Assembly (NCBI GenBank): GCA_903917705.1
Contig: CAIXBQ010000125.1
Span: forward strand, 1 to 64,000
Direction of reading: 5' to 3'
Source: an uncultured Verrucomicrobia subdivision 3 bacterium
GTDB lineage: Bacteria > Verrucomicrobiota > Verrucomicrobiia > Limisphaerales > UBA11358
DNA length: 64,000 nucleotides
Shown: positions 43,808 through 64,000 of the stretch, piece by piece
Layout: every line of letters starts with the position of its first letter
Position numbering within the stretch: the stretch's first letter is position 1
The notes under the pieces: generated by a model
The model's input: the letters and a program-made list of their open reading frames with translations, nothing else
What the model was told of the DNA's origin: nothing
Databases searched by the model: none
Position numbers and translations under genes: made by a program

Positions 43808-44685
43808 GCCGGCTGTTGATCGTTGACGGGCACGCCTACGCGTATCGGGCGTTTCACGCCATCCGCGAGTTGCGGGCGCCGGATGGTCGGCCGACGAATG
43901 CCGTTTTTGGTTTCGTTAAAATGCTCGAGAAAATGCGCTCGGCCTTGGCGCCGGCGCATTTGATTGTCGTCTGGGACGGCGGGCTGGATGCCGGGCGGGT
44001 CGCGGCCCTGCCGGAATATAAGGCCCAGCGGCCCGAGATGCCGGACGATTTGCGGTCGCAGTTGGACGGGATTGGGAGCTATCTGGCGGCCGCGGGGATC
44101 GTCAGTTTTTGCGGCGACGGCGTCGAGGCGGATGATTATATCGCCTGTCTGGCGCGGGCGGCGGCGGAAAAAGATTGGGACGTGGTGATTGCCAGTTCCG
44201 ATAAGGATTTTATGCAGTTGGTCTCGGCCCGGATCGGCCTGTTGAATCCGGGCGATAAGACCGGGACGGTTTGGACGCGGGAGCAGGTCGTGGCGAAGGC
44301 CGGGGTGGAGCCGGGGCAGGTGGCGGACTGGCTCGCGCTCATGGGCGATGCGGTGGATAACATCCCCGGCGTGCCCGGTGTCGGACCGAAGACCGCCGCC
44401 GCCTTGTTAAACCAATTTGGTTCGGCCGCCGCCTTGCTGGCGCGGCTGGACGAGGTGAAGTCGGAAAAATTACGGGCGTCGCTGCTAAGTTCGGCGGACG
44501 CGGTTCGCCGGAATCTGGAGTTGGTCGGCCTGCGCGCCGTGCCCTGCGAGTTCGTGCCGGACCGGCTGGCGGTGCAGCCGCCCGACCGTGAACAATTGCG
44601 CAGCCTGTTCCGGCTCTGGGGATTCAACGGTCTGTTGGCGGAACTGGATGCCTTGCCGGTCGAACGGCAGGCGGAGTTGATTTGA
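43804..44685 (+). CDS. 5'-3' exonuclease (DNA polymerase I N-terminal domain type)
   Basis: A stand-alone flap/5'-3' exonuclease domain of 293 residues. The N-terminus LLIVDGHAYAYRAFHA has the first metal-binding aspartate, GVEADDYIA and ASSDKDFMQLV supply further acidic residues, and DNIPGVPGVGPKTAAALL is the helix-hairpin DNA-binding motif. No polymerase domain follows. It starts with GTG 43804, overlapping the secretin stop by GTGA, so it is translated with the pilus operon despite an apparently unrelated job (primer removal or repair). A hairpin pair follows after its stop. Confidence 0.9.
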   Translation: MSRLLIVDGHAYAYRAFHAIRELRAPDGRPTNAVFGFVKMLEKMRSALAPAHLIVVWDGGLDAGRVAALPEYKAQRPEMPDDLRSQLDGIGSYLAAAGIVSFCGDGVEADDYIACLARAAAEKDWDVVIASSDKDFMQLVSARIGLLNPGDKTGTVWTREQVVAKAGVEPGQVADWLALMGDAVDNIPGVPGVGPKTAAALLNQFGSAAALLARLDEVKSEKLRASLLSSADAVRRNLELVGLRAVPCEFVPDRLAVQPPDREQLRSLFRLWGFNGLLAELDALPVERQAELI

Positions 44686-44723
44686 AAATGAATTTGCAAA
44701 GCTCGATTAACCAAATAGTCGGT

Positions 44724-44762
44724 GCAAGGAAAAACCTTGCGGGATTTTTTAGACAATCCCGC
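44724..44762 (+). terminator. Two overlapping hairpins after the exonuclease gene
   Basis: Hairpin 1 (GCAAGG 44724-44729, CCTTGC 44735-44740) is followed by GGGATTTTTT. Hairpin 2 (GCGGGATT 44739-44746, AATCCCGC 44755-44762) begins inside the last two bases of hairpin 1 and uses part of the T tract as loop. The first looks like an intrinsic terminator; the second could compete with it. They lie between the PilQ/exonuclease genes and the giant secreted-protein genes. Confidence 0.5.
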
Positions 44763-44792
44763 CGGGTTGGATTATTTTGCACATACTTAGTC

Positions 44793-46781: not shown

Positions 46782-46791
46782 TGAGATTTGT

Positions 46792-49668
46792 ATGCGGAAA
46801 TTGATTAAATATTTTTTCTGGGCTGGTGCGTTTCTCCTGACGTTGCCGGTCGCGTGGGGCTTTGTTCCCGGTGGGCCGATCGGCAACGGCGGCGACGGCT
46901 ACCAGACGCCCGCCCTTGATTACGGCATCCGCGGCGAACAGCTCGGGCCGAAAAACATCGGCGAGGAGTATCGCCGGGTCACGCCGGTGATGTATTATGC
47001 CTGCGATTCGAGCTTTTTGAATTATTTTGGCTTGGTCGGCTCCACGAACATTGATGCGGCGTTTGGCTTGATGAATATTGTGCTGACCAACGGGGTCTCC
47101 AGCTTTTCCTCGGATCTTTCCGAGTTCCCCTTGGAATCACAGCAGTTCAATTATACAGCTCAGGCCCTGGGGTTGACGGATTTGAAATCCGGCACTTTCC
47201 AGTTGCTCGTCGAGCAGATGGGGTTGGCCAACCCTGACTTTTACGTCTGGACCCTGCATGACCGCATTGCGGGGCCGAATTGCCCGGCTGACATATCTTA
47301 TAACGTGATCCAGCGGAACTTGGATTTCATGCCTACCCCGTTCAATCAGGTGCAATACTCGCCGTATATCAACGGCACGCTTTTTACCTACCAGATTTTT
47401 GAGACCTGCGCTGGCTTGGCCGGCACTCGGAACAGTTCGGTTGACCCGTTTGGTGCCGTCAACACGGCGGTGGCCTCCCAGAACTTGCAAAGCGGCGGTT
47501 TTTTTACGGGCTTGACGCGCGATGATGTGGGCTGCTTCCGGTATCTGTTGAGTTCCAACAACATTAATTGGGAAAACCCGGCCCCCAGCGGCGGTTTGCT
47601 CTTGGTGACCAATGTTCTGGCCCCGCAGACGCTGACGACCTTGCCCATCAGCCTGATCCTTTCGCAGTCCGGCTCCACGAACGATCCCGCGTCCTTGGCC
47701 ACCAATTTTCCGGGGGTGGTCATCCTCTCGGTCGTCACCAATACCGGCCTTTATATCTCCACCAACGTTGTTTATTATTTTACCAACCAGTCGGTCCTGC
47801 CGGTGTTTTCTAACACGGTGGCTGGCGGCTTGCCGGTGGTCCACAACCTGACCAATATCTATTATTTCACCAACCAGCCCGGGCCGACGGTCATCAATTA
47901 TGACAACAGCGGTTTCTGGACGGAAATTGATACCATGGATCTGGCCACCTTCGTGGATTCGGTGGCGATCGATGACCCGGCTACTTTGCAGGCGGCCTAT
48001 CCCGGCCTCTCCATTTTGAGTGCGAGGCCGTACCCCGGTTATGCTGACATCACCAATTATGTTTCCTATCTGACCAATCAGGTCGGCTCGCCCTATGGTT
48101 CCCCGCCCATCCTGGTCACGGTGCCGGTTATCACCAACGGGTTTACCACCAATTGGACCTATGTTTTTGGCAATGTGTTTACCAACCATGTTTATCCCAA
48201 GCGCTGGGTCACCATCCAAACGACTTGGGTGACCAATCTGGTCGGGGCGCCCTATCCGAACATCTACTCCAATACCACGTCGATATCCTATTTTACGAAC
48301 AAGGTGGCGGGTGATTTCTTCCTGATTCCCACCAACTGGTGTGGTTTTGATCTGATCCTGTCCAAATCCAGCTCGTCCATGGTGGGGGCGGTCACGGCCC
48401 AGCCGTTTGGCTCTTTCACCAATTCCACCGCCACCAATTCGACGATTTTCAGCGTTACCAAAAATTATTTTGACACCTATACCAATTACTCCTATCTCGT
48501 GTATCCCGGCATCTGCGAGCCGGTGGTGGCGGTTGCCACGAACTACGCCACCAATATCCTGACCACCTACGTGTACTACTTCGGTGGCATCGTTACCAAC
48601 CGGTTTTATACGAATACCTATTCGGTGGTCATCACCACCAACGTCTCGGCCTGTTTTGGCGGTTCTCCGGATTTGCTCTGCACCAACATCTCCATTGTCA
48701 CGACCTACCTCAATCAGCCTTCCGGCGATTTCCTCCCCATTCCGGCCAATTGGTGTGGGTACACCATTCTGTCCGCCCTGCAGACGAATACGATCTATGC
48801 CACCAACATTGTTTCCGCTACGAATGGCGTGTCGTCGGGCACCAATGGCGGACAGTTCTCTTATACGCAGACGACCATCACCGCCTATACCAACGTCGTG
48901 TTCCTGGTGCAGCCGGACCTTTGCTCCCAGGCGGCCCCGGTGCCCGCCTTGCGGCAGGGCATTGAACACCTCCAGTTTGTCCGCGCCAACTACGATTCAC
49001 TGCTGGGCCAGTTCTTCCAGCCGCTGACCAATCGCTACAGCATGGTGACCGTCACCAACAGCCAGCGCGTGGTGGAATTTTATCAGCGCGTGGTGACGGG
49101 TCCGGACTTTTTGCTCAGGGCCGCCGATTTGGGGGCCACGCGGGTGACCCGCGGCATTAATTTTGACCAGAGCACCGTTTCGGGCGGTTTGGCGGGACCC
49201 GGCACGATCATTCCCTCCACCACGTTTACCTACACCAAGGTCGGGCCGATTTTTGCCAACGGACCGGCCGGTAATCGGGCGTTCTTGGACCAGAATACGC
49301 AGCAGACCAATTCGCTGGTGACTTGGGCGTCCTTTGATGGCTCCACCAATCTGCCCGTGCTGTATCCCAACGGCGCCAGCATTGCCGACTTGGTCAGCCA
49401 GATGTTCATCCAGGTGGCGCCCGCCACCGTTCCCGACGGCACAAATGGCGTGCCTTACAGCGCCGCCTTTACCGTGACCGGCGGCCAGTCGCCATATGTC
49501 TGGGGGGCGCCCGGCTTTTCTAACTTGGTCCCCGGATTGACCTTCACCCCCGGCACGGCCACGGTCTCCGGCACCCCCGTTGGTCCCGGCGTGTTCAACT
49601 TTACCCTGCAGGTGACTGACGCGGCCAACCGGGTCGTCAACCTGAGCTATTCGATCACCATTCACTGA
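46792..49668 (+). CDS. Large secreted protein with Tyr/Phe-Thr-Asn-rich insert and C-terminal putative Ig domain
   Basis: A 958-residue secreted protein: signal peptide KYFFWAGAFLLTLPVAWG (ATG 46792), then a globular part of about 270 residues of unknown family (IDAAFGLMNIVLTNGVSSF, YNVIQRNLDFMPTPFNQVQ). DNA 47640-48930 encodes a stretch rich in YFTN/TNYV motifs with two pairs of internal repeats (PASLATNFPGVVILS and PATLQAAYPGLSILS; GDFFLIPTNWCG and GDFLPIPANWCG). The globular part then resumes (GIEHLQFVRANYDSLLG, VVEFYQRVVTGPDFLLRAADL). The last ~85 residues (FTVTGGQSPYVW, GLTFTPGTATVSGTPV, LQVTDAANRVVN) are a He_PIG-type putative Ig domain. The gene is 10 nt from the one before and 5 nt from the one after. 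Confidence 0.65.
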   Translation: MRKLIKYFFWAGAFLLTLPVAWGFVPGGPIGNGGDGYQTPALDYGIRGEQLGPKNIGEEYRRVTPVMYYACDSSFLNYFGLVGSTNIDAAFGLMNIVLTNGVSSFSSDLSEFPLESQQFNYTAQALGLTDLKSGTFQLLVEQMGLANPDFYVWTLHDRIAGPNCPADISYNVIQRNLDFMPTPFNQVQYSPYINGTLFTYQIFETCAGLAGTRNSSVDPFGAVNTAVASQNLQSGGFFTGLTRDDVGCFRYLLSSNNINWENPAPSGGLLLVTNVLAPQTLTTLPISLILSQSGSTNDPASLATNFPGVVILSVVTNTGLYISTNVVYYFTNQSVLPVFSNTVAGGLPVVHNLTNIYYFTNQPGPTVINYDNSGFWTEIDTMDLATFVDSVAIDDPATLQAAYPGLSILSARPYPGYADITNYVSYLTNQVGSPYGSPPILVTVPVITNGFTTNWTYVFGNVFTNHVYPKRWVTIQTTWVTNLVGAPYPNIYSNTTSISYFTNKVAGDFFLIPTNWCGFDLILSKSSSSMVGAVTAQPFGSFTNSTATNSTIFSVTKNYFDTYTNYSYLVYPGICEPVVAVATNYATNILTTYVYYFGGIVTNRFYTNTYSVVITTNVSACFGGSPDLLCTNISIVTTYLNQPSGDFLPIPANWCGYTILSALQTNTIYATNIVSATNGVSSGTNGGQFSYTQTTITAYTNVVFLVQPDLCSQAAPVPALRQGIEHLQFVRANYDSLLGQFFQPLTNRYSMVTVTNSQRVVEFYQRVVTGPDFLLRAADLGATRVTRGINFDQSTVSGGLAGPGTIIPSTTFTYTKVGPIFANGPAGNRAFLDQNTQQTNSLVTWASFDGSTNLPVLYPNGASIADLVSQMFIQVAPATVPDGTNGVPYSAAFTVTGGQSPYVWGAPGFSNLVPGLTFTPGTATVSGTPVGPGVFNFTLQVTDAANRVVNLSYSITIH

Positions 49669-49673
49669 AGTTT

Positions 49674-52631
49674 ATGGAATTATTTGTCCGCCCAATGAAA
49701 CGCCGGAGCTGGTGGCTGAACCTCCCGTCGGTCGCGGTGTCGCTCATGTTGCTGGGCCGCAGCGTGGAGGCCCAGCAGGACACGTTCAATGTCACGGATT
49801 ACGGTGGCACCCTGATCAATTATAATACCCCCATCGACGCGCTTAACTTTGTCAACGATTGGGGTGATATTTTCAGCTACAATAACCCTCTGCTTACGGG
49901 CAATTGGCCCCACGGCCTGCTGTATGATAATTGGAGCGACACCCTCAATTTCTTCAATGCGGGTGAGATGGACTGCGGCACCGGCTTCTGTTTTGACACG
50001 CATAGTGCGTCCGGTTTCCGGCAGGCCGCCGGGTTTTACAACTACGGGGTCATTGCCTGTGGCACCAATCAGGTCGGCGGTAATGTTGGCATTTATGTGA
50101 ATGCCACCAACATCGTGAATTCCGGCACCATCAACATCGGCTTGAACGGTTTGGCTCGTTTGAGCGGTAGTTATTTGGATTTTACCGCCGGCACCTTGGC
50201 GATTCAAAACAATCAGATCAACTACAATGCCAATGTGAACGCCACCGGCGCGACCGGCACGGACACCAATGCCGACTGGATACCCATCAATGCGCTGACC
50301 AAGAACACGGCGGTTTCTTCGGCCCCCCTTTACTTCAACCTCAGCCGTTCAACGCCATATTTTGATCTGCGGCAGACCGGTCCGACCACTTTTGTTGTCC
50401 GGATGATCTTCCTCCAGAACAACAGTTCCAACTCCGTGCCGGCCAACGTTTATTTTGGGAATGATCCTTCGGTTCCTTTCACCGGTGGCGGCCATGTCGA
50501 ATGGCTGGGCGGTTATATCTCCCCCGCTACGGGCCTGCCGGCGACCAATTATCTTTATCTGGATAACGATTATGTCGTGGGGTCCAACACCAACATCCTT
50601 GGCTACGTCAGCCCGGGCGTTCCGAATAATTTTAACATCAGCGAAAACACCACCCCGCTGAATTATGGCACCCCGGTGGTCGCGGGCTTTCCGGATTATT
50701 TCGGGCCCAATACCGGCCCTTTCCTGTCCGGCAACGTGACCAACAACATTTATTCCTACCTCAATGCCCAGTTGATTGCCTCCTCGGTCTCCTTGGCCTC
50801 GGTGGCCAACGGCGCGCTGACCAACCTCCCGGGCCGGGTGGAACTGACGGCGTCGAACGAATTGAATCTTTCGCTTTCCACGATGTCGGGCATGAATTAC
50901 CTCCAGTTGAAAAGCACCAACCAGTTTGATTACGATGGCCAGTCCCTCATCACCGCGCCTTATTCCGATATGTATCTGGGCCGCACCAACGGCAACCTCG
51001 CGATTACCAATCTGATTGTGTCTTCCATTCCGGTGTGGAGCGGCAATGTACAGGCTTGGAGCACCCGCTGGTTTGTTACGGATGGTGGCGGCAACACCAT
51101 TGACTACCGGGCGTTGTTGGTGATGGATGCGGTCAATCCGGTCTCCCCCTCCCAGCAGCAGGACGTGGTGCTGTATAGCACCAACAACGTGATCATCAGC
51201 GACACGTTGAATATTTCTCGCACCCTGTCTTTGAACTGCACCAATCTGCTGATCTCCACCAACGGGGCGGGTAACGGCGCGCTTTCGCTGGACGGCGAGT
51301 TGAATTTGAATTCCTCGACCATGGACTGGGCCGCTTCCACGCCGCGCCTGCGTTGCCTGACCAACAATGGTGCCATCCGCACGATGAAATCCACCAAGTT
51401 TGGCAGTTCCGCCCTGCCTTACCTGACCATGGTGAATGCCGGCACCATCAGCACCACGTCCGGTGCGTCGATTGTGGCCGGCGACTTCGAAAACAACAGT
51501 GGATATTTTTCCGTCGGCAGCGGTTCTTTTATCATCCAATCGCTCACCACCACCATGACCAACGGCTTCATCCAGGCCGGTGGCTCGTTCACGAATATCA
51601 GTGGCAGCCTCGTGGTGGCCGGTAACACCATTTTGGCCGGGAATGCGTTCTCGCTCACCGTCACCAATCTCTTGACGGATAACGGCCTGACCAACAGCTT
51701 CTGGTCGCTGGGTGCCAATTATCCCGGCTTTGGTCTGGCTCCGGGGTTGAGCCTGCCGATCAAGCCGGTTGCCGGCGATCTCCTGGGCACCACCATCACC
51801 AATATTGTCGCCAGCGGCACCGCCTTGTCCAACTCGTGGGCCGGTCAGGATCGCGGTTATTCCACCGCCGGCTATGCGAACAACGCCGCCATCGGCCAGT
51901 TGGTCCTGCTCGCGAAAGGCGCGCCGCCGCATACGACGTGGTATTTCACCGGCACCGGCTCCAGCAACGCCATCTATGTGGATTGTCTGCAATTGTTCAA
52001 CTACGCCACCAACCATAATGCCAGCTATGACTTGCTCAACCTGCAGTTCAACACCAATCTGGTCATTTACTATGCGCAGGCCTTGTTTGAGGGCGTTTCG
52101 GTGGCGGAAAAATTGAACCACCGGAATAATGACCACCTTCGCTGGGTGCCCGCTTATGCCGGGACGTTCAGTTCCGTGGCCGTGGTTTATCCGGATGGGA
52201 CGACCAATCTGGTCAACGCGGCTCTGGCCGCCGCCTCGGATATGGATTCGGATCGTGACGGCCGGGCCAACAGCACGGACCCGACGCCGGTGCTCGTGCC
52301 CTCGCAGGTGCAGTTTAACCTGACCTTGACCACCAACCATCCGCCGCTCGTCCGGCTGGCGTGGCCGACCATCCCGTTGGCGGGCAATTTTGTTTATTAC
52401 AAGACCAATTTGCTGTCGCCCGTCTGGTTGCCCTTCACCAATTTCGGCAATTATTACTACGGTCCCGGCACCGCGGTGACGAACTCGGCCCACTCCAATA
52501 ATTTTATTTCGCCCCAGCCCTATAATAACACCATGTGGCCGGCGGATAACTGGGAGACGACGAATGTCTGGCTGTTTGATGTTCTGACGAATGGTCCCCG
52601 TTTTTATCGGGTGATGCTGTTGCCGAACTAA
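49674..52631 (+). CDS. Large secreted beta-rich protein (adhesin- or autotransporter-passenger-like)
   Basis: The 985-residue protein begins with a signal peptide (WWLNLPSVAVSLMLLGRSVEA). The body is Asn/Thr/Gly-rich with many short strands (NIVNSGTINIGLNGLA, VELTASNELNLSLSTM, TVNAGTIS-like patterns such as MVNAGTISTTSG), as in parallel beta-helix passengers of filamentous surface proteins. There is no recognisable autotransporter barrel; the C-terminus instead ends in the same PRFYRVMLLP pattern as the 44793 gene. ATG 49674 is taken because the three following gene starts share an AAGTT-ATG leader; ATG 49695 is an alternative just before MKRRSW. It is 5 nt after the previous stop and 20 nt before the giant gene. 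Confidence 0.6.
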   Translation: MELFVRPMKRRSWWLNLPSVAVSLMLLGRSVEAQQDTFNVTDYGGTLINYNTPIDALNFVNDWGDIFSYNNPLLTGNWPHGLLYDNWSDTLNFFNAGEMDCGTGFCFDTHSASGFRQAAGFYNYGVIACGTNQVGGNVGIYVNATNIVNSGTINIGLNGLARLSGSYLDFTAGTLAIQNNQINYNANVNATGATGTDTNADWIPINALTKNTAVSSAPLYFNLSRSTPYFDLRQTGPTTFVVRMIFLQNNSSNSVPANVYFGNDPSVPFTGGGHVEWLGGYISPATGLPATNYLYLDNDYVVGSNTNILGYVSPGVPNNFNISENTTPLNYGTPVVAGFPDYFGPNTGPFLSGNVTNNIYSYLNAQLIASSVSLASVANGALTNLPGRVELTASNELNLSLSTMSGMNYLQLKSTNQFDYDGQSLITAPYSDMYLGRTNGNLAITNLIVSSIPVWSGNVQAWSTRWFVTDGGGNTIDYRALLVMDAVNPVSPSQQQDVVLYSTNNVIISDTLNISRTLSLNCTNLLISTNGAGNGALSLDGELNLNSSTMDWAASTPRLRCLTNNGAIRTMKSTKFGSSALPYLTMVNAGTISTTSGASIVAGDFENNSGYFSVGSGSFIIQSLTTTMTNGFIQAGGSFTNISGSLVVAGNTILAGNAFSLTVTNLLTDNGLTNSFWSLGANYPGFGLAPGLSLPIKPVAGDLLGTTITNIVASGTALSNSWAGQDRGYSTAGYANNAAIGQLVLLAKGAPPHTTWYFTGTGSSNAIYVDCLQLFNYATNHNASYDLLNLQFNTNLVIYYAQALFEGVSVAEKLNHRNNDHLRWVPAYAGTFSSVAVVYPDGTTNLVNAALAAASDMDSDRDGRANSTDPTPVLVPSQVQFNLTLTTNHPPLVRLAWPTIPLAGNFVYYKTNLLSPVWLPFTNFGNYYYGPGTAVTNSAHSNNFISPQPYNNTMWPADNWETTNVWLFDVLTNGPRFYRVMLLPN

Positions 52632-52651: not shown

Positions 52652-55600
52652 ATGAGATTTTTAAGCGTTGAATGCCGCGCCGCCTTGCGGTCGCCGGCAG
52701 ATTGGAGAAATGTTGTGAATACGATGCAAAATATTATTGCCGGCCCGAGTTTGGCCGGTCGCTCGGTCGTTGCCGGTTGGCTGAAGTTGTCCCTGCTGCT
52801 GGCCTTTGGCCTGGTGGCCGGAGTCGCCGTGGCCCAGCCCGCTAACGACAGTTTTACGAATGCCCTCTTCATTACCGGCTTCACGGGTTCGACCAATGGC
52901 AGCAACGTGGGTGCCACCTTGGAAACCTGCGAGCCGACCTCGGTGAATACCGATGATTTCGGGGTTGAGCCGGTGGACAACTCGGTTTGGTATAAATGGA
53001 CGGCTCCCTCCAGCGGAACGGTTGCCGTGACCACGATTGGCAGCACTTTTGATACCCTACTGGCCGTGTATTCGGACGCCACGAACAACTTGTGCGATCC
53101 CAGCCTGACCTTCATCGGGGCGGATGATGATAATGGCTTTAATGTCGGCGGGGACCCCAATTTTTTTACCAGCCAGTTGAGTTTTACGGCGGTTGCGGGT
53201 ACGACTTACTACTTTTCCGTCAATGCCAGCGTGTTTGGTTTTTACGATACCGGCAATATCGTGCTGAATTGGAATTTGCCTTTGCCGGGGCCCGCTCCGA
53301 CCATCGAATCGGGTACGTTTCAATTTACGGCCGGGGAATATCTGGTCAGTGATACGGATTCCGCGGGACTAAATAATCCTTACGATGGCTACACAGTGAC
53401 GCCTTGGTCCGATCCGCAGGGGACTCTTGGGGCGCGTCTCACCGTGACTCGCATGGGTGGATCAACCGGGCGAGTCATGGTGGATTATACGACTATTGGT
53501 GGCGGGATGACCTACACCAACATGTATATCACCAATTATTTTGGCACGAACATCTCTTTTTCGATGTTGGATACCAATACGGGTTTCACCTTGATCACCA
53601 ATTTCAGCCTGAACACCATCGTCTTTTCAAACTATTATGAATCGATCGCCGGTGGCTATATCACCAACATTGTATATGGTGCCTTGTCTAATTCCACTTT
53701 CCAGACCTACTCGGTTGGGACCAATTTCTCGACCAATTATTTTCCATTGGTGACCGGGCCGTTGGTTCCGGCGCCGACGAATCTGCCTCCTTTGGGAACT
53801 TTGTTCGCCACCCTGACTGATAATCTGACCGGGTTTGGTTCAACCATCTCGACTTTTTTTAGTTTTAGCACGGTCTCTACCAATACGGTTTCGGGGGTGC
53901 TTCCGTCCGATGGTTCAACTGTCACTGACGGCGTTATCCTTTACACCAATTTTGCCGCCTATTGGACCAATACCTTCGTGACCAATATCTACGGCACCAA
54001 TATCGCCGTTTCCTATACTCTGTTGGGTGGTGGGCGTTATTTCACCAATTATTTCTACACCAATATTGTTTCCTCGAGTTATTATTTCACCAACTTCGTC
54101 TACACCAACGGCCTGTTAAGCACCAACTTTACCTTCTCAACCAATCTTGTCAGCGCCATCACTAATTTTGCGTGGTGGAATAGCAACAATGTGGATGCCG
54201 CAGGGCCGGTGGTCAGCACCAGTACGCGGTATATAGAATTCCATCCGGTGCCGACGAACTATCCTCCGATTGGAATCCACGGCATTGGGCCTGGTACCAA
54301 TACCTATCATTATCGCACGGTCACCAACGAGATTATTTATGCGTCGGCCGGTTTCGACACCAACCTGACCGGGACAATTGTTTTTGATGACTATCAGATG
54401 AGCCAGGACATCATTTTGCCTGTCGCAGCGGGGGTTCAAAGTGCCGATGCCCCCTATCTCCCGTTTATATCCTGGGTGGTAAATGTCCAACTTACCAATC
54501 CCCGATTGGCCCCGTTGGAATCATCTCAATTGATTCCGCCGACCGTGGATCCCAACTCTGGTAGCAGCATTGTGAATGCGTTGAGCACCAAATATCCGCC
54601 GGTGGCGTTCAGGCCCATCTGGCAGGCGCAGGCAACGTCCTTTAATTTTGAACATTCTTGTTTTAAGGTGGACAAGGATGTGCTCGGCGGTGTTGCCATT
54701 GTGAGTGTCCTGCGCGCCGGGGGGAACGCCTGCGATAACGTGTCCGTGAGTTATACCGTTGATAATTATCCGAATCCCCCGGCCAATACGTTTGGCGTCC
54801 AAGCCGGTTCCGATTATGCCACTCCCGACAGTGATTTTACCCGGGTGACCGGCACGATGACTTGGGGGGCTTATGATTTTAAACCCAAAACCATCCAGGT
54901 TCCGATTCCGATCCTTAACAATGGCCTTGTGGAGAATAACGAGGATCTTTTGATCCAGTTGTTCAATCCCGTCCTCAATTCAACTTGTGTCAACCCCTCA
55001 TCGGATGATCCGGGGGCGGTCGTGGGGTTGGTCGGTTCGGCTAACTTGACCATCTTGTTTGATGATGCGGTTTGTGGCCAGCAGCCTGCTGGCGCTTTGG
55101 ATCGTTGCTGGAACGCAGAAGGTTCGCCGGTGTCCGTCCCGCCGTTCCTGACTTATCCCGGCACCCAGGGCGGTGTCAGCGGCGGCGCCAACGGTAACGG
55201 CGGCACCGTCTACGCCGTGACTGAGCAGCCCGATGGCCGGGCCATTGTGGCCGGTAGTTTCATCTCCTACGATTCCAATCCTTACAATCGCATCGTTCGC
55301 GTGCTGGACGACGGGTATCCGGATACCACGTTCCTGCAGGCGCCCAATAGCGGGGCCAATGACTATATCACCTCGCTGGCCTTGCAGCCGGATGGGAAGA
55401 TTTTAGTCGGTGGTAAGTTTACCTCCTTCAATGGAAATAATCGCTATCACATTGCTAGGTTGAATGCGGATGGCAGCGTGGATGGCAATTTTATGAACGG
55501 CACCAGCGGCACCGCGTTGGGGGTCCGGGGCACCAATGCGATCGTTCAGTCCATCGCGCTCCAGTCCAACGGGCAGTTGGTGATTGCGGGTCATTTCACC

Positions 55601-58600
55601 TCGGTCAACGGCACCAACTGTAACTCGGTCGCCCGGTTGAATGCGGATGGCACGCTCGACTTGAGTTTCAATCCCGGCATCGGTCCGAATGGCGTGGTGA
55701 ACTCCGTGGTGGTGGACGCCAGTGGCCGGGTCATCATCGGCGGCGAATTTGAATATGTGGGCGGCTTGTTGCGTGGCGGGGTGGCGCGCTTGAACGTGGA
55801 TGGCTCCGTGGACACCGCGTTCGATCCCGGCATCGGTACGTACAATCCCGATACCGGTTATTCTGACCCGGTTTACGCCTTGGCCTTGCAGCCGGACGGG
55901 AAGTTGCTCATGGGCGGCACTATTACTTACTATGAGTTGGCCAACTATAACGGCATTTTGCGCCTCACTACCGATGGTTCAGTGGACACCACGTTCAATC
56001 CCGGCACCGGGCCCCAAAACGGCACCTACAATCCTGTGACCGGTGTGGCCGATACGGTCAGTGCCATTACTCTCCAGCCGGATGGTAAAATACTGATTGG
56101 CGGTGATTTCATTCAATATAATCAGACTCATCGCGTGGGTATCGCCCGGTTGTTCAGTTATGGCAGCTTGGACACCAGCTTCCTGGACACTTATTACAAT
56201 CAGTTCGCCGGCATTCCGAATCATTATTTCAACAATGATGCCGTCGATCCCACCCTTTATCCGCCGATAAATAACCGTAATTTTGTGGACGCCATCGCGC
56301 TGGAACCGGGCACCACCAACGTGATGATTGGCGGCGGATTTCTGCAAGTTGGTGGCGGTGCTACTCGCGAGGATATCCATCCTCGCAGCAATTTGGCCCG
56401 TTTGATTGGTGGAGCCACGCCCGGGCCGGGTAACATACAGTTATCGTATGGCAAATACACGGTGGACAAGAGCGGTGATAGCTTGTTTGTTTCAATCGTG
56501 CGTACCAACGGCAGTTTGGGCCTCGCCTATGCAACGTTTTCGACGATTCTGGGGGCTCCCGGGCCGGGTGTGGCCACCGCGAATGATTTTACGCCGCAGG
56601 GTGCCATTCCGGTCTGGCCGACGCTTTATTCAACCAGTCCAAGTATGTCCTGGTTGCAAAGTCCGGCCTATTACGGGCCAAATTACAATACCTTGCCTCA
56701 ACCGGACCCGAATACGACGGAGTACGTCAAATTGACAATCAATAATAATGCCACCATCAGCGGAAATGTGAACGCCAACTTTGCCATGGCGGATCCGCAG
56801 TCAGCTTTTACTCTCGGTGGCGAAAGAATGCCGCTAGGGGTTGCCTTGGGTTGGCAGGATGCCGCTCTGATGACCATCATCGACGACAACTTCAAGCCGG
56901 GCGTGCTCGGTTTCAGTTCTGCCGCCTATATCGTGAATGAAAATGGCAACAACGCCACCATCACCGTCGTCCGCACCAATTTCACCGGCGGTGTGGTTCA
57001 GGTGAGCTATGCCACGAGCAATGGCACGGGTACCAACGGAATTGATTTCACTAACACCACTGGCACTCTGACTTTCCAGGCGGGCGACAGTACCAAGACC
57101 TTCACCGTTCCGATTAAAAATGGTACCACCACCCAGCCGGACAAGACGGTGATTCTGACGCTGTATACGCCGTCGGGCGGGGCGACCCTCGGCCTGACCA
57201 ATGCCGTGTTGACCATTGTCAATAACAACTCGCGGGTCGGCCATATTGGTTTCGTTGCGGCGGCATACACTGCCAATGAAACGGATGGTAATGCCTTGAT
57301 CGGTATTAGCCGTCTGGGTGGCGGTCAGGGGACTATCAGTGTTACGATGGTCACCGGGGACGGCACCGCCACCAATGGGGTGAACTATGTGGGTACGACC
57401 AACACCCTGACTTGGACCAACACGGATGTGAGTACCAAGCTGGTGTCCATTCCGGTGAAGCGCGACTGGCTTTATACGTCGAATCTCCTGGTCAATCTGC
57501 GGTTGACCAATGGTGTGCTGAACTTGGGGACCAACAACGCGGTGCTGGGCTATGGCGGTACCAACGCGGTGTTGACCATCGTTAATGTGGATTTCCCCGG
57601 CACGGTCGAGTTCGCCGCTAATGCCTATTCGGTGAAGAAATATGGCGGCTCTGCGCTGATCCCGGTGGTCCGCACTGGTGGCCTATCCGGGTCGCTCTCG
57701 GTCGCCTACGCCACGGCGGACGGTTCGGCGTTGGCTGGGGTGAACTATACCGCCACCGGCGGCACCCTGGTGTTTACTAATGGCGAGGCCGCGAAGTATT
57801 TCACGGTGCCGATTAATCCTGCCGCTTCCAACGGGTTGGTGTCTCTGAACCTGTCCTTGAGCAACGCGGTGGTGGTGGGCAATGCCACCCCTTGGAATGC
57901 CCAGGGCAGTCCCAGCAATGCCGTGTTGAACATTATTGACACAACGACGGTGAACGAAATCCCCGGCGGGCCGGATGTCACTTACAGTTCTTTTGCGGGC
58001 TTCAATGGCCCGGTCTATGCCATGACGCTCGCGACTGAAAACCAGTTGTTGGTGGGTGGCGATTTCACCATGGCGGACGGTGTGCGCCGCCAGCGGATTG
58101 CGCGCCTGAACGCCGATGGGTCGCTGGATCCCGCTTTCTCGCTGCCCACCACCACCATGGGTGCGGATGCCACCGTGCGTGCGGTTGCCATCCAGTCGGA
58201 TGACCGCATCCTGGTCGGCGGTTCCTTCGCCAACATGAACAGTGTGGTGATGAAAGGTATTGCCCGCCTGAACTCCGACGGTTCCCTGGACAGTCTGTTT
58301 AATCCCGGCTCCGGTGCGGACAATCCCGTTTATGCCGTGGCTGAAACCTTCTTCAATGGCGACCGGAAAATTCTGGTGGGTGGCAGCTTCTCTCTGCTGA
58401 ACGGCCAGTTGGCGAATGGCGTCGGTCGGTTGAATGACGACGGATCCCCGGATACCACCTTCAATGTCAGTGGTGTGGGGGCCAATGCCACCGTCTATGC
58501 CATGGCGGTGCAAACCGATGGTAAGGTGCTCATCGGCGGCGACTTTACGTCCGTGAATGGGGTCAATGCGAATCACCTCGCCCGGCTGAACCCGGATGGT

Positions 58601-61600
58601 TCCGTGGACCTCAGCTTTACCAACGCTACGGCCAATGATTCGGTCCGCGCCATCGCCCTCCAATTGGACGGCCGGATTCTGGTCGGCGGTCTGTTCACGA
58701 GCCTTGATGGCCATACCAACTTCAACCATGTTGCGCGGTTGAATAGTGCGGATGGTTCGGCGGACAACAGCTTTGTCCCCGGCTTGGGGGCGAATGACGC
58801 CGTGTTCAGCATCGCCTTGCAGACGGACGGTCGTGTTGTTCTGGGCGGGTCGTTCACCCGTTGCAGCGGCGTCACCCGTAACCGTATCACGCGCCTCAAT
58901 CCCGACGGCACGGTGGATCCCACCATCAACTTCGGCGTGGGGGCGGATAGCTTTGTGGCGGCGGTGGTGGTGCAGGAAGACTTGGTTTCCGGCTATCCCA
59001 CGAACGTGCCCGATGAAAAAATCATCATTGGCGGCGGGTTCCTCAACTACGGCGGGTTGCCGCATCCGTATCTGGCCCGGATCTACGGTGGCTCGATTGG
59101 TGGTGTCGGAGCCTTTGAGTTCTCCGCGCCCACCTATTCGGTGAATGAAACCGGTACCAACGTCATCATCACGGTGAACCGCACCGGCGGCACCAGTGGC
59201 ACCAATGCCAATGGTTCGGGCCACATTTTTGTGCCCGTCGCCACCAGCGACGGCACCGCGCAGGCGAATACCGACCACGGCGCGGTCACCAATTATTTCG
59301 CCGTCATGACCAACTTGGATTTTGCGATGGGCGAAGTGCAGCAGACCATCACCATTTCCGTCTTGGACGATCATGTCATCACCCCGGATTTGACGGTGAA
59401 TCTCGCGGTGAATCCGGTGGCGCCGGCCGAATATGGTGACCAGCCTACGGCGGTGCTCACGATTGCCAATACGGACAACTCCATCAGTTTCTCGTCTGCC
59501 GCCTATCAGGCCAACAAATATACGGGCAGCGTTCCGGATGGCTATGCGCCCATCTATGTCAACCGTAATGGCGCCACTTATGGTGCTGCCACCGTGGTCT
59601 TCAACACCACCACCAATGGCAACGCCACGCCGGGCTTGGACTATTTGCCGATGACCAATATCCTGGTCACCTTTGCGCCGGGCGTCACCGTTCAGACGGT
59701 GTTGATACCCGTCCTCAACGGGGTGTCAGACGGGGATCGCACCGTTACTCTTCAGTTGACCAATGTCATCGGGTCCCTGTTGTCTAATCCGTCAAATGCC
59801 GTGCTGACCATTTTGGATCGGACGCTGGCCAAGGGTTCCTTCGTGTTTTCTCAGACCAACTATGTGGTCAGCGAGGGCGGCGGTTCGGGCTATACCAATG
59901 CCTACATCACGGTGTTGCGCACCAACGGTGCCTCCGGCATCGTTTCGGTCGGCTACAGCACCGCGGATGACACGGCCGTGGCCGGGGCTAAATATGTCAA
60001 CACCACCGGGGTCCTGAACTTTGGCGATGGCGAGTTGAGCAAGACCTTTGCCGTGCCGGTGCTCAATACGGCCTCCATTGAGGTGACCGAGGATTTCTTT
60101 GTCGGGTTGTCCAATCCGACCGGCGGTGCCACCTTGGGCAGTCCTGCCATCACCACGGTGACGATTTTGAACACGAACATTGGCATCGTCTTCGCCTCGG
60201 CCACCAATACGTTCATTGAGACGCTGCCGTTCGCCACCATCAATGTCCTGCGCTATAACAACACCCAGGGCACGACCACCGTCAACTACTTCACCACGAA
60301 CGGTACGGCTTTTGCCGGCACCAACTATGTCGCCAGCAGCGGCACGCTGACCTTTAATGATGGCGCCGCGCAGGCCGCCATTCTGGTTCCGCTGATTTAT
60401 GACACCCAGGTGACCGGCGATGTGCAGTTTAAAGTGGGTCTATCCAGCCCCAGTCCCGGCGTCCAGATCGGCACGCCCGGGGTGAGTACCGTGATCCTGC
60501 AGGATGCCGACAACGGCTTGAGTTTCACGAATGCCAATGTCAGTGTGTTCAAGAATGCCGGCAATCTGCTCGTGACGGTGATGTGCTCCAACACGAATAT
60601 CGAGCCGGTTTCCGTCAGCTATGCCACCGCCGACGGCACGGCTGCCAACCACGCCACCGCCGGGGCGGATTACACCGCGACCAGCGGCACGCTGACCTTC
60701 AGCAACGGCGTGGCCACCCAGACGTTTAATGTGCCGATTATCAACAACGGCGCCGTCACGGGCGACCATGTCTTTATCATCAGCTTGTCCAATCCGACCG
60801 GCGCCGGTCGCCTCGTTTCGCCGAGTCAGCAGACGGTCACCATCGTGGACAGCAATTCCGGTCTGCGGTTCTCTAGCGCCAACTTCACCGTTGGCAAATC
60901 GGGCGGTTCGGCGGTCATCACCGTTTATCGCAGCGACAATACGAACGTCACCACCACGGTCGATTTCGTTGCGACCAACGGCACGGCGGTCAACGGCCTG
61001 AATTTTATCGCCACCAACGGGACGCTGATCTTCTCCAACGGCGTCACGGTCCAGACCTTCAGTGTGCCGGTCATCGCCACCACCACGGTGCAGCCCGATT
61101 TGACCGTGTTGTTGGCCTTGTCCAACCCCACCAACGGCATCCTGCTTTCTCCGTCGTCGGCCCGGCTGACCATTCACGACAACACCGGTAGCTATGTCAT
61201 TCCCGCCGGTTCTCAATTGGTGTCTGAAACCGGTGCCGGGGTGCCCAACGGCATCATTAATTCCAACGAGACCGTCACCGTCCTGTTTGGCCTGCGCGAC
61301 GCCGGCGGCACCAATGTCAATAATCTGATTGCGACTCTGTTGGCCACCAACGGCGTGACGCCGGTGGGTTACACGACCACGAATTACGGGCCGCTGGTGT
61401 ATGCCGGCCACTCGGTTTCGCGCCCGTACTCTTTTACTGCCCATGGCACCAACCACCAGCAGATCGCCGCCACCTTCAAGCTGTTCGCCGACAGCACCAA
61501 CAACGGCATCGGCACGGCGGTCTTTGGTTACACGATTGGCAGTTGGACCTCCATTTACTCCAACAACGCCACGATCATCATCAATGACACCAATGTTGCC

Positions 61601-61888
61601 TCGCCCTATCCGTCCATCATCAATGTGAGCGGTGTCGGCGGTTCGCTCATCAAGGCCACGGTCACCTTGAACAAGCTGACGCATACCTACCCGCACGATG
61701 TGGATGCGCTGGTGGTTTCGCCCGCGCAGTTGAACACGCTGATCATGGCGCATGCCGGCACGGTTTCCGCCACCAATGTCACGCTGACCTTTGATGATGC
61801 GGCCACCAACAGCCTGCCGGAATTCGGCCCCATCACCACCAGCACCAACAAGCCGACGCAGCATTTCCCGGTGAATCCTTTCCCCTGA
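52652..61888 (+). CDS. Giant secreted Calx-beta / delta-60 repeat protein, 3078 residues, ending inside a P-like domain
   Basis: Domain order from N- to C-terminus: signal sequence (to about residue 61), a PPC-like beta domain (PANDSFTNALFITG, VWYKWTAPSSGTVAV, TFDTLLAVYSDA), a Calx-beta domain interrupted by a YFTN-rich insert (53500-54370), another Calx-beta (near 54650-55060), a block of delta-60 repeats (LQPDGKILVGGKFTS, ARLNADGSVD, 55200-56400), several Calx-beta units (56420-57940), a second delta-60 block (57960-59090), six more Calx-beta units (59100-61180), and the first half of a subtilisin-type P domain (HDVDALVVSPAQLNTLI, LTFDDAATNSLPEFGP). Translation ends at TGA 61886, without the second half of the P domain, which is present in the next gene. 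Such proteins are probably surface or adhesion proteins. No sorting signal is visible because the C-terminus is lost. Confidence 0.85.
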   Translation: MRFLSVECRAALRSPADWRNVVNTMQNIIAGPSLAGRSVVAGWLKLSLLLAFGLVAGVAVAQPANDSFTNALFITGFTGSTNGSNVGATLETCEPTSVNTDDFGVEPVDNSVWYKWTAPSSGTVAVTTIGSTFDTLLAVYSDATNNLCDPSLTFIGADDDNGFNVGGDPNFFTSQLSFTAVAGTTYYFSVNASVFGFYDTGNIVLNWNLPLPGPAPTIESGTFQFTAGEYLVSDTDSAGLNNPYDGYTVTPWSDPQGTLGARLTVTRMGGSTGRVMVDYTTIGGGMTYTNMYITNYFGTNISFSMLDTNTGFTLITNFSLNTIVFSNYYESIAGGYITNIVYGALSNSTFQTYSVGTNFSTNYFPLVTGPLVPAPTNLPPLGTLFATLTDNLTGFGSTISTFFSFSTVSTNTVSGVLPSDGSTVTDGVILYTNFAAYWTNTFVTNIYGTNIAVSYTLLGGGRYFTNYFYTNIVSSSYYFTNFVYTNGLLSTNFTFSTNLVSAITNFAWWNSNNVDAAGPVVSTSTRYIEFHPVPTNYPPIGIHGIGPGTNTYHYRTVTNEIIYASAGFDTNLTGTIVFDDYQMSQDIILPVAAGVQSADAPYLPFISWVVNVQLTNPRLAPLESSQLIPPTVDPNSGSSIVNALSTKYPPVAFRPIWQAQATSFNFEHSCFKVDKDVLGGVAIVSVLRAGGNACDNVSVSYTVDNYPNPPANTFGVQAGSDYATPDSDFTRVTGTMTWGAYDFKPKTIQVPIPILNNGLVENNEDLLIQLFNPVLNSTCVNPSSDDPGAVVGLVGSANLTILFDDAVCGQQPAGALDRCWNAEGSPVSVPPFLTYPGTQGGVSGGANGNGGTVYAVTEQPDGRAIVAGSFISYDSNPYNRIVRVLDDGYPDTTFLQAPNSGANDYITSLALQPDGKILVGGKFTSFNGNNRYHIARLNADGSVDGNFMNGTSGTALGVRGTNAIVQSIALQSNGQLVIAGHFTSVNGTNCNSVARLNADGTLDLSFNPGIGPNGVVNSVVVDASGRVIIGGEFEYVGGLLRGGVARLNVDGSVDTAFDPGIGTYNPDTGYSDPVYALALQPDGKLLMGGTITYYELANYNGILRLTTDGSVDTTFNPGTGPQNGTYNPVTGVADTVSAITLQPDGKILIGGDFIQYNQTHRVGIARLFSYGSLDTSFLDTYYNQFAGIPNHYFNNDAVDPTLYPPINNRNFVDAIALEPGTTNVMIGGGFLQVGGGATREDIHPRSNLARLIGGATPGPGNIQLSYGKYTVDKSGDSLFVSIVRTNGSLGLAYATFSTILGAPGPGVATANDFTPQGAIPVWPTLYSTSPSMSWLQSPAYYGPNYNTLPQPDPNTTEYVKLTINNNATISGNVNANFAMADPQSAFTLGGERMPLGVALGWQDAALMTIIDDNFKPGVLGFSSAAYIVNENGNNATITVVRTNFTGGVVQVSYATSNGTGTNGIDFTNTTGTLTFQAGDSTKTFTVPIKNGTTTQPDKTVILTLYTPSGGATLGLTNAVLTIVNNNSRVGHIGFVAAAYTANETDGNALIGISRLGGGQGTISVTMVTGDGTATNGVNYVGTTNTLTWTNTDVSTKLVSIPVKRDWLYTSNLLVNLRLTNGVLNLGTNNAVLGYGGTNAVLTIVNVDFPGTVEFAANAYSVKKYGGSALIPVVRTGGLSGSLSVAYATADGSALAGVNYTATGGTLVFTNGEAAKYFTVPINPAASNGLVSLNLSLSNAVVVGNATPWNAQGSPSNAVLNIIDTTTVNEIPGGPDVTYSSFAGFNGPVYAMTLATENQLLVGGDFTMADGVRRQRIARLNADGSLDPAFSLPTTTMGADATVRAVAIQSDDRILVGGSFANMNSVVMKGIARLNSDGSLDSLFNPGSGADNPVYAVAETFFNGDRKILVGGSFSLLNGQLANGVGRLNDDGSPDTTFNVSGVGANATVYAMAVQTDGKVLIGGDFTSVNGVNANHLARLNPDGSVDLSFTNATANDSVRAIALQLDGRILVGGLFTSLDGHTNFNHVARLNSADGSADNSFVPGLGANDAVFSIALQTDGRVVLGGSFTRCSGVTRNRITRLNPDGTVDPTINFGVGADSFVAAVVVQEDLVSGYPTNVPDEKIIIGGGFLNYGGLPHPYLARIYGGSIGGVGAFEFSAPTYSVNETGTNVIITVNRTGGTSGTNANGSGHIFVPVATSDGTAQANTDHGAVTNYFAVMTNLDFAMGEVQQTITISVLDDHVITPDLTVNLAVNPVAPAEYGDQPTAVLTIANTDNSISFSSAAYQANKYTGSVPDGYAPIYVNRNGATYGAATVVFNTTTNGNATPGLDYLPMTNILVTFAPGVTVQTVLIPVLNGVSDGDRTVTLQLTNVIGSLLSNPSNAVLTILDRTLAKGSFVFSQTNYVVSEGGGSGYTNAYITVLRTNGASGIVSVGYSTADDTAVAGAKYVNTTGVLNFGDGELSKTFAVPVLNTASIEVTEDFFVGLSNPTGGATLGSPAITTVTILNTNIGIVFASATNTFIETLPFATINVLRYNNTQGTTTVNYFTTNGTAFAGTNYVASSGTLTFNDGAAQAAILVPLIYDTQVTGDVQFKVGLSSPSPGVQIGTPGVSTVILQDADNGLSFTNANVSVFKNAGNLLVTVMCSNTNIEPVSVSYATADGTAANHATAGADYTATSGTLTFSNGVATQTFNVPIINNGAVTGDHVFIISLSNPTGAGRLVSPSQQTVTIVDSNSGLRFSSANFTVGKSGGSAVITVYRSDNTNVTTTVDFVATNGTAVNGLNFIATNGTLIFSNGVTVQTFSVPVIATTTVQPDLTVLLALSNPTNGILLSPSSARLTIHDNTGSYVIPAGSQLVSETGAGVPNGIINSNETVTVLFGLRDAGGTNVNNLIATLLATNGVTPVGYTTTNYGPLVYAGHSVSRPYSFTAHGTNHQQIAATFKLFADSTNNGIGTAVFGYTIGSWTSIYSNNATIIINDTNVASPYPSIINVSGVGGSLIKATVTLNKLTHTYPHDVDALVVSPAQLNTLIMAHAGTVSATNVTLTFDDAATNSLPEFGPITTSTNKPTQHFPVNPFP
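53500..54370 (+). other. Tyr/Phe-Thr-Asn-rich insert inside a Calx-beta domain of the giant protein
   Basis: The Calx-beta start (LTVTRMGGSTGRVMVDYTT) and its continuation (GTIVFDDYQMSQDIILPV) are separated by about 290 residues rich in YFTN, NYFYTN, FVTNIYG and STNF motifs. The same kind of motif fills the middle of the 46792 protein. Ordinary Calx-beta domains have only a short loop here. Confidence 0.65.
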
Positions 61889-61921
61889 TGTCGCTTGGCG
61901 CAAATATCAACGAGTAATTTT

Positions 61922-64000
61922 ATGAGCAAGATTTTTTTGAAGATGAGCTTCGGTATGGTGGCCGCCGTCGGCTTGACCCTGGCGGCGTCGGCTGCCGCGC
62001 CGGGTGCCCGGAAACAGCTTCACGGCCATGTGCCGTCGGTGGTTTCGCACTTGGCTTCCACTGGCCGGTTGAATGCAACCAATAAGCTGCATCTGGCCAT
62101 TGGCCTGCCGTTGCGCAATCAGGATGCGGTGGACTCGCTGTTGCAACAGATAAACGATCCCGCCAGTCCGAATTACCACCATTACCTCACTCCGGAGGAA
62201 TTTGCCGCGCATTTCGGGCCGACCGAGCAGGACTATCAGGCCGTTAAGGATTTTATCCGGGCCAAAGGCCTGACGGTGTCACGCGCGGACGGCAACCGGA
62301 TGCTGCTCGAGGTCACCGGCTCGGCATCGGATGTGGAAAAGGCGTTCAACGTAAAGTTGAATAAATTCCGGCACCCGACCGAAAACCGCGATTTCTTTGC
62401 CCCGGATCAGGAGCCGTCCGTGCCGGTTGAACTTTCTGTTTTGGATGTCTGGGGGTTGAGCAACTATCCGAAACCGCGTTCTTCGATGCGGCATATCCCG
62501 TCGATCGCCAAGAAGGCTTCTCCCGCGCCCAAGGCTGGGTCCGCCCCCGGCGGGGATTATATGGGCTATGATTATCGCAAGGCTTATGTGCCGGGTACCA
62601 CCTTGACGGGTACGGGCCAGAAAGTCGCCTTGGTTCAGTTCGATGGCTATTTTGCCACTGACATTGCGGAGTATGTGCGCCAGACGGGCTTGCCCACCCT
62701 CTCGATTACCAACATTTTGTTGGACGGCTTTGACGGGAATCCCACGATGACCGGCGGTGAGGGTGAGGTCACGTTGGACATCGAAATGGTTAATTCGATG
62801 GCTCCCGGCTTGGGTCAGTTGCTTGTCTATGAGCAGAATCCGAATAACTTCAATCCTAACTCGGTGCTCAACCAGATCGCGATGGACAATGCCGCGCGGC
62901 AGGTAAGCTGTTCTTGGGGGTGGGGCGGCGGTCCGAGCGCAACCAGTGACCAGATTTTCCAGGAGATGATTCTGCAGGGGCAGAGCTTTTTCAATGCGTC
63001 AGGCGATACCGACGCCTCTTTGCCGGGAGAGTTTGATGACCCGAACGGTTTTGGTTATCCCACTTGCAGCCCCTATCTGACCCAGGTGGGTGGAACCAAA
63101 CTTACGACGGATGCGGGGGGGAAATTTGTTTCGGAAACCGTTTGGAATGATCGCACTCCGAATGCCAATGGCGGTGATTGGGGTAGTACCGGCGGTATTA
63201 GCGATTTCTATAAAACGCCCTCTTGGCAGGTTGGCTTCGGGACCGCCGCCAATCACGGTTCCACCACCGGCCGCAACGTCCCCGATGTCGCCTTGACCGC
63301 CATCAATGTATATATGGTTCTCTACGGTCAGGGGCAATCGAGTGGCGGGACCAGCGCGGCTGCGCCGCTGTGGGCTGGTTTCATGGCCCTTGTCAACCAG
63401 CAGGCCGTCGCGAACGGACATGCCCCCGCCGGTTTCATCAACCCCGCTATTTATGCCCTCGCCAAAACGGCGGCTTATACCAACTGTTTCCACGACGTCA
63501 CTGCCGGTGACAATACGTGGCCGGGCAGCCCGACCAATTTCTTCGCTGTGACTGGCTATGACCTTGCCACTGGCTTGGGCACGCCCAACGGCACCAATCT
63601 GATAAATGCGCTGACGACTGTCAGTAGCGGTGGCGGTGGCGTCATTATCCCGCCCATCGTCTCCGCCCCCTTGCCGCCTTGGGGCACCAACTTGGCCGTG
63701 ATGAATGGTAGTGACCCGAACGGTGCTTGGTTCCTGTTTGTTCAGGATGACAAGCCGCTCGATGTCGGGATGATCAATAATGGCTGGTTTGTCACTCTGA
63801 CCACCGCCAATCCCGTCGGTTATGCCGCTGACAATCAGGTATATGCCACGCCCGCCAGCGTGTCCCTTGGCACCAACGCTCATTGGCTGGTTAGCTTGTC
63901 CGTCACCAACTACGGTCCGTCCTCCTCCACCAACGTTGTGGTCACGGACCTCCTGCCCGGTGTCGGCGTCACTCTCCTGTCCTCCATTCCGACCGTTGTC
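61922..64000 (+). CDS. Sedolisin/kumamolisin-type (S53) peptidase with split P-domain half and DUF11-like domain, partial
   Basis: The protein starts with a signal peptide (SKIFLKMSFGMVAAVGLTLAAS, ATG 61922). An activation domain follows (YHHYLTPEEFAAHFGP, DVEKAFNVKLNKF), then the S53 peptidase domain with acidic residues in GGEGEVTLDIE (near 280), oxyanion aspartate in NASGDTDAS (near 360) and the serine in SGGTSAAAP (near 473); DLATGLGTPNG marks the calcium loop. These serine-carboxyl peptidases are usually active at acid pH. After a short Gly-rich linker, residues from about 581 (NLAVMNGSDPNGAWFLFVQDD, GWFVTLTT) are the second half of a P-like domain and then a DUF11-like beta domain (SVTNYGPSSSTNVVVTDLLP). 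That part matches the missing end of the preceding gene. The gene is cut by the window end. Confidence 0.88.
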   Translation, partial: MSKIFLKMSFGMVAAVGLTLAASAAAPGARKQLHGHVPSVVSHLASTGRLNATNKLHLAIGLPLRNQDAVDSLLQQINDPASPNYHHYLTPEEFAAHFGPTEQDYQAVKDFIRAKGLTVSRADGNRMLLEVTGSASDVEKAFNVKLNKFRHPTENRDFFAPDQEPSVPVELSVLDVWGLSNYPKPRSSMRHIPSIAKKASPAPKAGSAPGGDYMGYDYRKAYVPGTTLTGTGQKVALVQFDGYFATDIAEYVRQTGLPTLSITNILLDGFDGNPTMTGGEGEVTLDIEMVNSMAPGLGQLLVYEQNPNNFNPNSVLNQIAMDNAARQVSCSWGWGGGPSATSDQIFQEMILQGQSFFNASGDTDASLPGEFDDPNGFGYPTCSPYLTQVGGTKLTTDAGGKFVSETVWNDRTPNANGGDWGSTGGISDFYKTPSWQVGFGTAANHGSTTGRNVPDVALTAINVYMVLYGQGQSSGGTSAAAPLWAGFMALVNQQAVANGHAPAGFINPAIYALAKTAAYTNCFHDVTAGDNTWPGSPTNFFAVTGYDLATGLGTPNGTNLINALTTVSSGGGGVIIPPIVSAPLPPWGTNLAVMNGSDPNGAWFLFVQDDKPLDVGMINNGWFVTLTTANPVGYAADNQVYATPASVSLGTNAHWLVSLSVTNYGPSSSTNVVVTDLLPGVGVTLLSSIPTVV

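Follow-up and report, generated by a model that had tools for sequence, protein, structure and literature searches.

This study concerns a protein domain that is divided between two neighbouring genes in a bacterium of the Verrucomicrobiota. The DNA analysed (the window) is a stretch of 64,000 nucleotides, contig C125:1-64000, from a metagenome-assembled genome (MAG) of 3.76 Mb in 167 contigs that is 66% complete. Near the right-hand end of the window, gene A encodes a giant secreted protein that stops inside a P domain of the type known from furin/Kex2 convertases, and the next gene, B, encodes a secreted S53 peptidase that carries the remaining part of the same domain in its tail. Both the split and the exchange of the protease that lies between the two halves can be taken as facts with great confidence.

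Genes A and B

All of the features lie on the forward strand, in the order A, a gap of 33 nt, B and, directly after B, coaE. Gene A (52652-61888) encodes 3078 residues with a PPC-like N-terminal region and, according to Pfam, ten Calx-beta and 13 DUF5122/delta-60 repeat matches. Its last 108 residues (61562-61885) form the first half of the P domain, with seven strands, and end in FP (...KPTQHFPVNPFP), after which the TGA stop codon occupies positions 61886-61888. The gap follows at 61889-61921. In the genome referred to as G009 (locus L095, contig C43), A also has a complete S53 domain, which is N-terminal and shares a reading frame with its Calx-beta region, in addition to the S53 domain in B.

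Gene B (61922-64000 in the window) starts at ATG 61922 and encodes 827 residues, running past the window to contig position 64405. It begins with a signal peptide read from the sequence (61922-61999; MSKIFLKMSFGMVAAVGLTLAASAAA), which is followed by a pro-kumamolisin activation domain (62054-62440; Pfam PF09286, E 9.6e-32) and by an S53 catalytic domain of the kumamolisin/sedolisin type (62558-63619), the exchangeable part of the locus, with the tetrad Glu282, Asp286, Asp362 and Ser478 of B. A linker that varies among relatives and ends in GGGGVIIPPIV (63620-63661) leads to the second half of the P domain, 56 residues with three strands (63662-63829), and then to a DUF11 domain that extends beyond the window (63854-64000; Pfam PF01345, E 4.6e-14) and to an FYR-type C-terminus, the last residues of which lie outside the window (...RFYRAVLGP). 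The reading frame passes without a break from the end of the S53 region into the half domain, ...GVIIPPIV being followed directly by SAPLPPWGTNLAVMNGSDPN. The fold of B matches pro-kumamolisin (1t1e) with a Z score of 39.3 and a root-mean-square deviation (rmsd) of 2.9 over 495 residues, and the tetrad is invariant in all 26 of the S53 sequences compared from split loci. The protease of B is thus a member of the S53 sedolisin/kumamolisin family by its activation domain, tetrad and fold, with catalysis predicted from these features.

Many large secreted proteins of this genome (window 44592-52628; L010 and L011) have C-terminal domains that resemble one another and close with an [FY]YR motif, possibly a sorting signal.

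An earlier note, made from the letters of the window, had located the stop of A within the P domain, and its coordinates were exact. It had also described the complementary half and DUF11 as attached to the S53 domain of the next gene, and the peptidase as having a signal peptide and start of its own; both descriptions were borne out, the in-frame fusion being read through to contig position 64405.

Identity of the P domain and position of the cut

Excision of positions 61886-63661 (1776 nt, 592 codons) fuses FPVNPFP to SAPLPPWG in frame, as the same note had proposed, and the product corresponds to a contiguous P domain: in the alignment used here (A2), 37 contiguous P domains of other genomes, of which most belong to other genera and some to other phyla, including Bacillota and Cyanobacteria, hold zero or one residue at the site where the window holds 592 codons. 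The Pfam family P_proprotein (PF01483) was matched by all 23 contiguous relatives searched, with a best E of 9.2e-11, and the rejoined halves of the window scored 19.8 bits, slightly below the 21-bit cut-off. Furthermore, the predicted model of a contiguous P domain from the same genus (L187; predicted local distance difference test score 95.5) matches the P domains of furin and Kex2 (Z 12.5, rmsd 2.0, 116 residues). The profile of the P-domain alignment gave zero matches among the sequences of solved structures, although the fold comparison matched furin/Kex2, and the match list of a structure search with the fused (read-through) model was filled by S53 and subtilase entries.

The cut falls in a proline-rich loop after strand seven, so that seven strands belong to A and three to B. 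The canonical P domain is contiguous and C-terminal to an S8 catalytic domain, whereas the domain here is divided over two genes and stands beside S53 or reprolysin-like domains.

Conservation and age of the split

The search for the split locus took in 195 relatives; those named in a scan of named genomes are mostly MAGs assigned to Limisphaerales or 'Verrucomicrobia subdivision 3'. The P domain is split at the identical residue in about 30 of the 49 genomes of the window's genus, from many independent assemblies and projects, and the carriers are a group of Verrucomicrobiota from lakes and bogs. In nearly all of the 28 split loci compared, A terminates in FP at one alignment column, and its stop codon is TGA in all but one of the split genomes examined. 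The start of B is less fixed, lying in relatives anywhere between an overlap with the stop of A and about 95 nt past it. The pair adjoins coaE upstream in every split locus of which the contig reaches far enough. Purifying selection acts on both half domains, in which divergence is 0.06-0.19 at second and 0.33-0.61 at third codon positions. The two halves have stayed intact, with the cut at one residue, in species that have diverged deeply.

Outside the genus, a contiguous P domain is almost universal; the uninterrupted form that the earlier note had suggested looking for was found in other families of the order and in other phyla. The split is therefore an old and fixed gene split, real rather than an assembly error. 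Within the genus, one member (G047) has a contiguous P domain, and the approximately unbiased (AU) test gives p 0.41 for a single split clade that excludes it; G047 may have lost the insert or may have been contiguous from the start. Several other members are without A entirely. In one genome (G035; L132:16521-17519) a short open reading frame before coaE resembles only the N-terminal part of A and is probably the remnant of a deleted giant gene.

Exchange of the protease

The protease that lies between the halves has changed repeatedly: other S53 proteases have taken its place and, on at least one occasion, a reprolysin-like metalloprotease. At least three clades of S53 bodies, each with good support, can be told apart among the split loci, and paralogues encoded at other places in the genomes branch between them. 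Trees of the flanks pair G012 with G033, G038 with G043 and G006 with G013, but the two proteases of each pair come from different clades. These three flank pairs are rejected by the S53 data, with AU p values of 2e-31, 2e-48 and 1e-9, respectively, and log-likelihood differences of 189-240 units. Conversely, the S53 groups are rejected by the flank data, with p from 1e-4 to <1e-80. The p values are optimistic because the tested pairs were picked after the trees had been seen. On the flank tree of 26 species, the S53 type must have changed no fewer than 11 times. The distance correlations agree with this, as Mantel r is 0.53-0.65 between flanks and 0.18-0.30 between flanks and S53. For coaE, r is 0.25 with the first half, 0.44 with the tail and 0.20 with S53, and coaE alone is a weak proxy for the species tree. 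A single S53 protease inherited with the split locus is ruled out by the presence of at least three S53 clades.

Two genomes (G036 and G121) carry a reprolysin-like metalloprotease (SHEVGHNLGLHHQG; Pfam Reprolysin_3) in place of S53 and keep the same half-P-DUF11-FYR tail, together with a signal peptide similar to that of the S53 versions. The flanks of G036 are sister to those of an S53 carrier (G039). The locus of G121 (L103) sits on a short contig (C466, 3.9 kb) in a MAG assigned to another family, and this contig may be contamination.

The intergenic and signal-peptide DNA tracks the flanks (r 0.36, p 0.015) rather than the protease, for which r is 0.15-0.16. Gene A with the gap, together with B's signal peptide and half-P tail, is therefore resident at the locus, and the protease body is the mobile part. 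In addition, trees of the pro-domain and of the core disagree for G014 and G040, which suggests recombination inside the S53 gene. The donors of new protease bodies were probably other S53 genes, several of which are present per genome.

Locus states and origin of the split

Three states of the locus can be distinguished. In the first, which most of the other families examined show, the P domain of A is complete, A has a C-terminal domain of its own, and a gene of 2100-2400 residues with its own P domains follows. The N-terminal part of this second gene varies between genomes (outgroup loci L106-L121, before coaE): by similarity it is S53 in G056 and G153, and in G143, G066, G187 and G094 it is of other types, called peptidases from a reading of the sequence only. 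In the second state (G047, G107, G060 and G059), a single gene ending in P, DUF11 and the C-terminal domain lies directly before coaE. The third is that of the window's genus, in which a peptidase stands between the two parts of the P domain. In trees, the first half groups with A-type P domains, and the tail clusters with the P domains that come last in the locus.

G107, with its single gene, is the nearest outgroup on both half-domain trees, and this favours an origin in which a peptidase gene was inserted into a P domain that had been contiguous. In the ancestor of this Limisphaerales genus, a secreted peptidase gene probably came to sit within the giant gene's P domain, resulting in adjacent genes A and B. 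The earlier note had read the locus as an inserted cassette; this holds as far as a peptidase gene lies exactly inside the P domain of the giant and carries its tail, and fails for a recent accident that truncated an adhesin, given that the same residue is cut in about 30 of 49 genomes and that the intact state is found outside the genus. The cases that the note would have counted against insertion, S53 peptidases with this tail and giants with this endpoint, were indeed found, but all of them belong to the one split locus, and in relatives elsewhere the domain is uninterrupted. A possible but doubtful alternative is that an ancestral pair of A and B underwent complementary deletions; it bears on the origin only and is compatible with docking of the two proteins. 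Pairs of A and B with varied proteases before coaE in outgroup families speak for it, as does the type of the tail, which is that of P domains standing last in the locus. However, the closest outgroup locus on both trees is one gene with a contiguous P domain before coaE, and two independent deletions would have had to reach complementary points.

No recombinase was found in the insert (61886-63661), and around it the only repeats are short and at chance level, with no terminal repeats or target-site duplication. Insertion of a mobile element (transposon, intein or intron) is ruled out, as there is neither a recombinase nor terminal repeats.

Neighbouring elements

To the right of the window, a diversity-generating retroelement lies at L009:7455-10500 (contig C125:67455-70500). 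Its parts, with families assigned by Pfam, are a variable protein of the FGE-sulfatase type, bAvd, a reverse transcriptase and a template repeat; 20 of the 26 mismatches between template and variable repeat fall at template adenines. Genes for IS66-type transposases lie between coaE and the retroelement (L009:5188-7420, contig C125).

Proposed docking in trans

Neither half alone closes the jelly roll, A having seven strands and B three, and the halves are therefore proposed to complete each other. What is found at the locus are two complementary, conserved halves in two co-localised genes, as in a split domain that is complemented in trans. After export, A and B would complete one P domain by non-covalent complementation, which would place one protease at the C-terminus of each giant protein. 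B would also give A, in trans, the DUF11/FYR C-terminal module that A is without, since B holds the sole FYR-type copy of the pair; other large secreted proteins of the genome carry this module themselves. The split would then act as a constant connector that accepts different proteases. We favour such docking of an exchangeable protease on the giant protein with moderate confidence, and the full explanation, in which an ancestral split, repeated exchange and a trans-complemented P domain are combined, is considered reasonably probable. The broader proposal is more evenly balanced, namely that this is a natural plug-in system, in which the split domain would link unrelated, interchangeable proteases to a giant surface protein and the bodies would be swapped by recombination between the resident signal peptide and the resident half domain.

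In an AlphaFold2 (AF2) model of the read-through chain, both halves are placed at high confidence and the strand order is that of the contiguous domain. This model is compatible evidence only, because its alignment held contiguous homologues and contacts between the halves are not readable from it. Several points weigh against docking. The contiguous homologues in that alignment favour a joined fold; the association of A and B is deduced rather than directly observed; the data are sequences of MAGs alone; the pair is not essential, because members of the genus have lost A altogether; and the half domains could have independent roles.

Alternatively, the halves may be tolerated relics of an old insertion, A ending early and B having an odd tail with no interaction between them. 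The loss of A in several members of the genus, and binding that is proposed rather than observed, would fit relics, but low second-position beside high third-position divergence in both halves, a cut that barely drifts over about 28 loci and a half-P tail that is retained through replacement of the protease, even by a metalloprotease, make this unlikely. Slightly less likely still is that the halves have separate functions and are conserved without reassembly, for example with the tail of B as a secretion or anchoring signal and the end of A as a cap. The presence of the FYR-type C-terminus of B on other large secreted proteins of the genome is in line with such a role for the tail; however, exactly complementary cuts of one domain in two genes are then left unexplained, and jelly-roll fragments of seven and three strands are unlikely to fold alone.

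The two remaining explanations concern the junction itself. In the window, A and B share one reading frame with TGA as the sole stop between them, and the same codon is used in all but one of the split genomes examined, as might be expected of programmed readthrough yielding an A-B fusion. However, the phase between A and B is random over 30 split loci (10/7/13), and B is provided with a start and a signal peptide of its own. Readthrough is thus no conserved feature, and it is very improbable as an explanation. Readthrough or frameshifting as a conserved mechanism is ruled out by the random phase. Misassembly of two loci, which the earlier note had allowed for, might be suspected in a MAG of this completeness; it was rejected because the split is conserved in independent assemblies. 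The junction recurs in about 30 genomes from many projects with the same synteny before coaE, and the junctions are without long repeats, leaving the probability of an artefact negligible.

Comparison with known systems

P domains, S53 peptidases and two-piece domains are each already known. The P domain of furin/Kex2-type convertases (P/Homo B, PF01483) resembles the present one in family, fold and its tie to a secreted protease; it is encoded in one gene with an S8 partner, whereas here two genes are involved and the partner is an S53 protease or a metalloprotease. In the same way, B is similar to sedolisin/kumamolisin S53 peptidases (pro-kumamolisin, 1T1E) in activation domain, tetrad and fold, and differs from them by its half P domain, DUF11 and FYR-type C-terminus. 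A related arrangement is that of the giant A and peptidase B pairs before coaE in other Limisphaerales families, which share the position, the varied peptidase and the presence of P domains; unlike in the split pair, each of these proteins has complete P domains.

Domain atrophy (PMC4432964) is also comparable, in that a protein ends with a truncated structural domain. In that survey of truncated domains, a missing part located in an adjacent gene was handled as a gene-prediction error; here the missing part is retained in the adjacent gene B, which sets this locus apart from atrophy. Partial domains at gene boundaries are usually written off as annotation errors, and yet about 30 species keep one here. 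A literature search, with thin coverage of subscription journals, returned no report of this locus or of a conserved P-domain split with exchanged proteases. The split locus is a clear example of how a modular secreted protease system evolves.

In two-piece domains of natural or engineered origin, such as split inteins, donor-strand complementation and SpyTag/SpyCatcher, a domain is completed by a segment of another polypeptide. The proposed A-B pair differs from these in that no covalent bond or splicing is expected, and in that the connector halves are constant and the intervening enzyme is exchanged. If the halves do rejoin, they would be a natural non-covalent connector pair that evolved for swapping secreted enzymes, and such a pair could possibly be useful for protein coupling.

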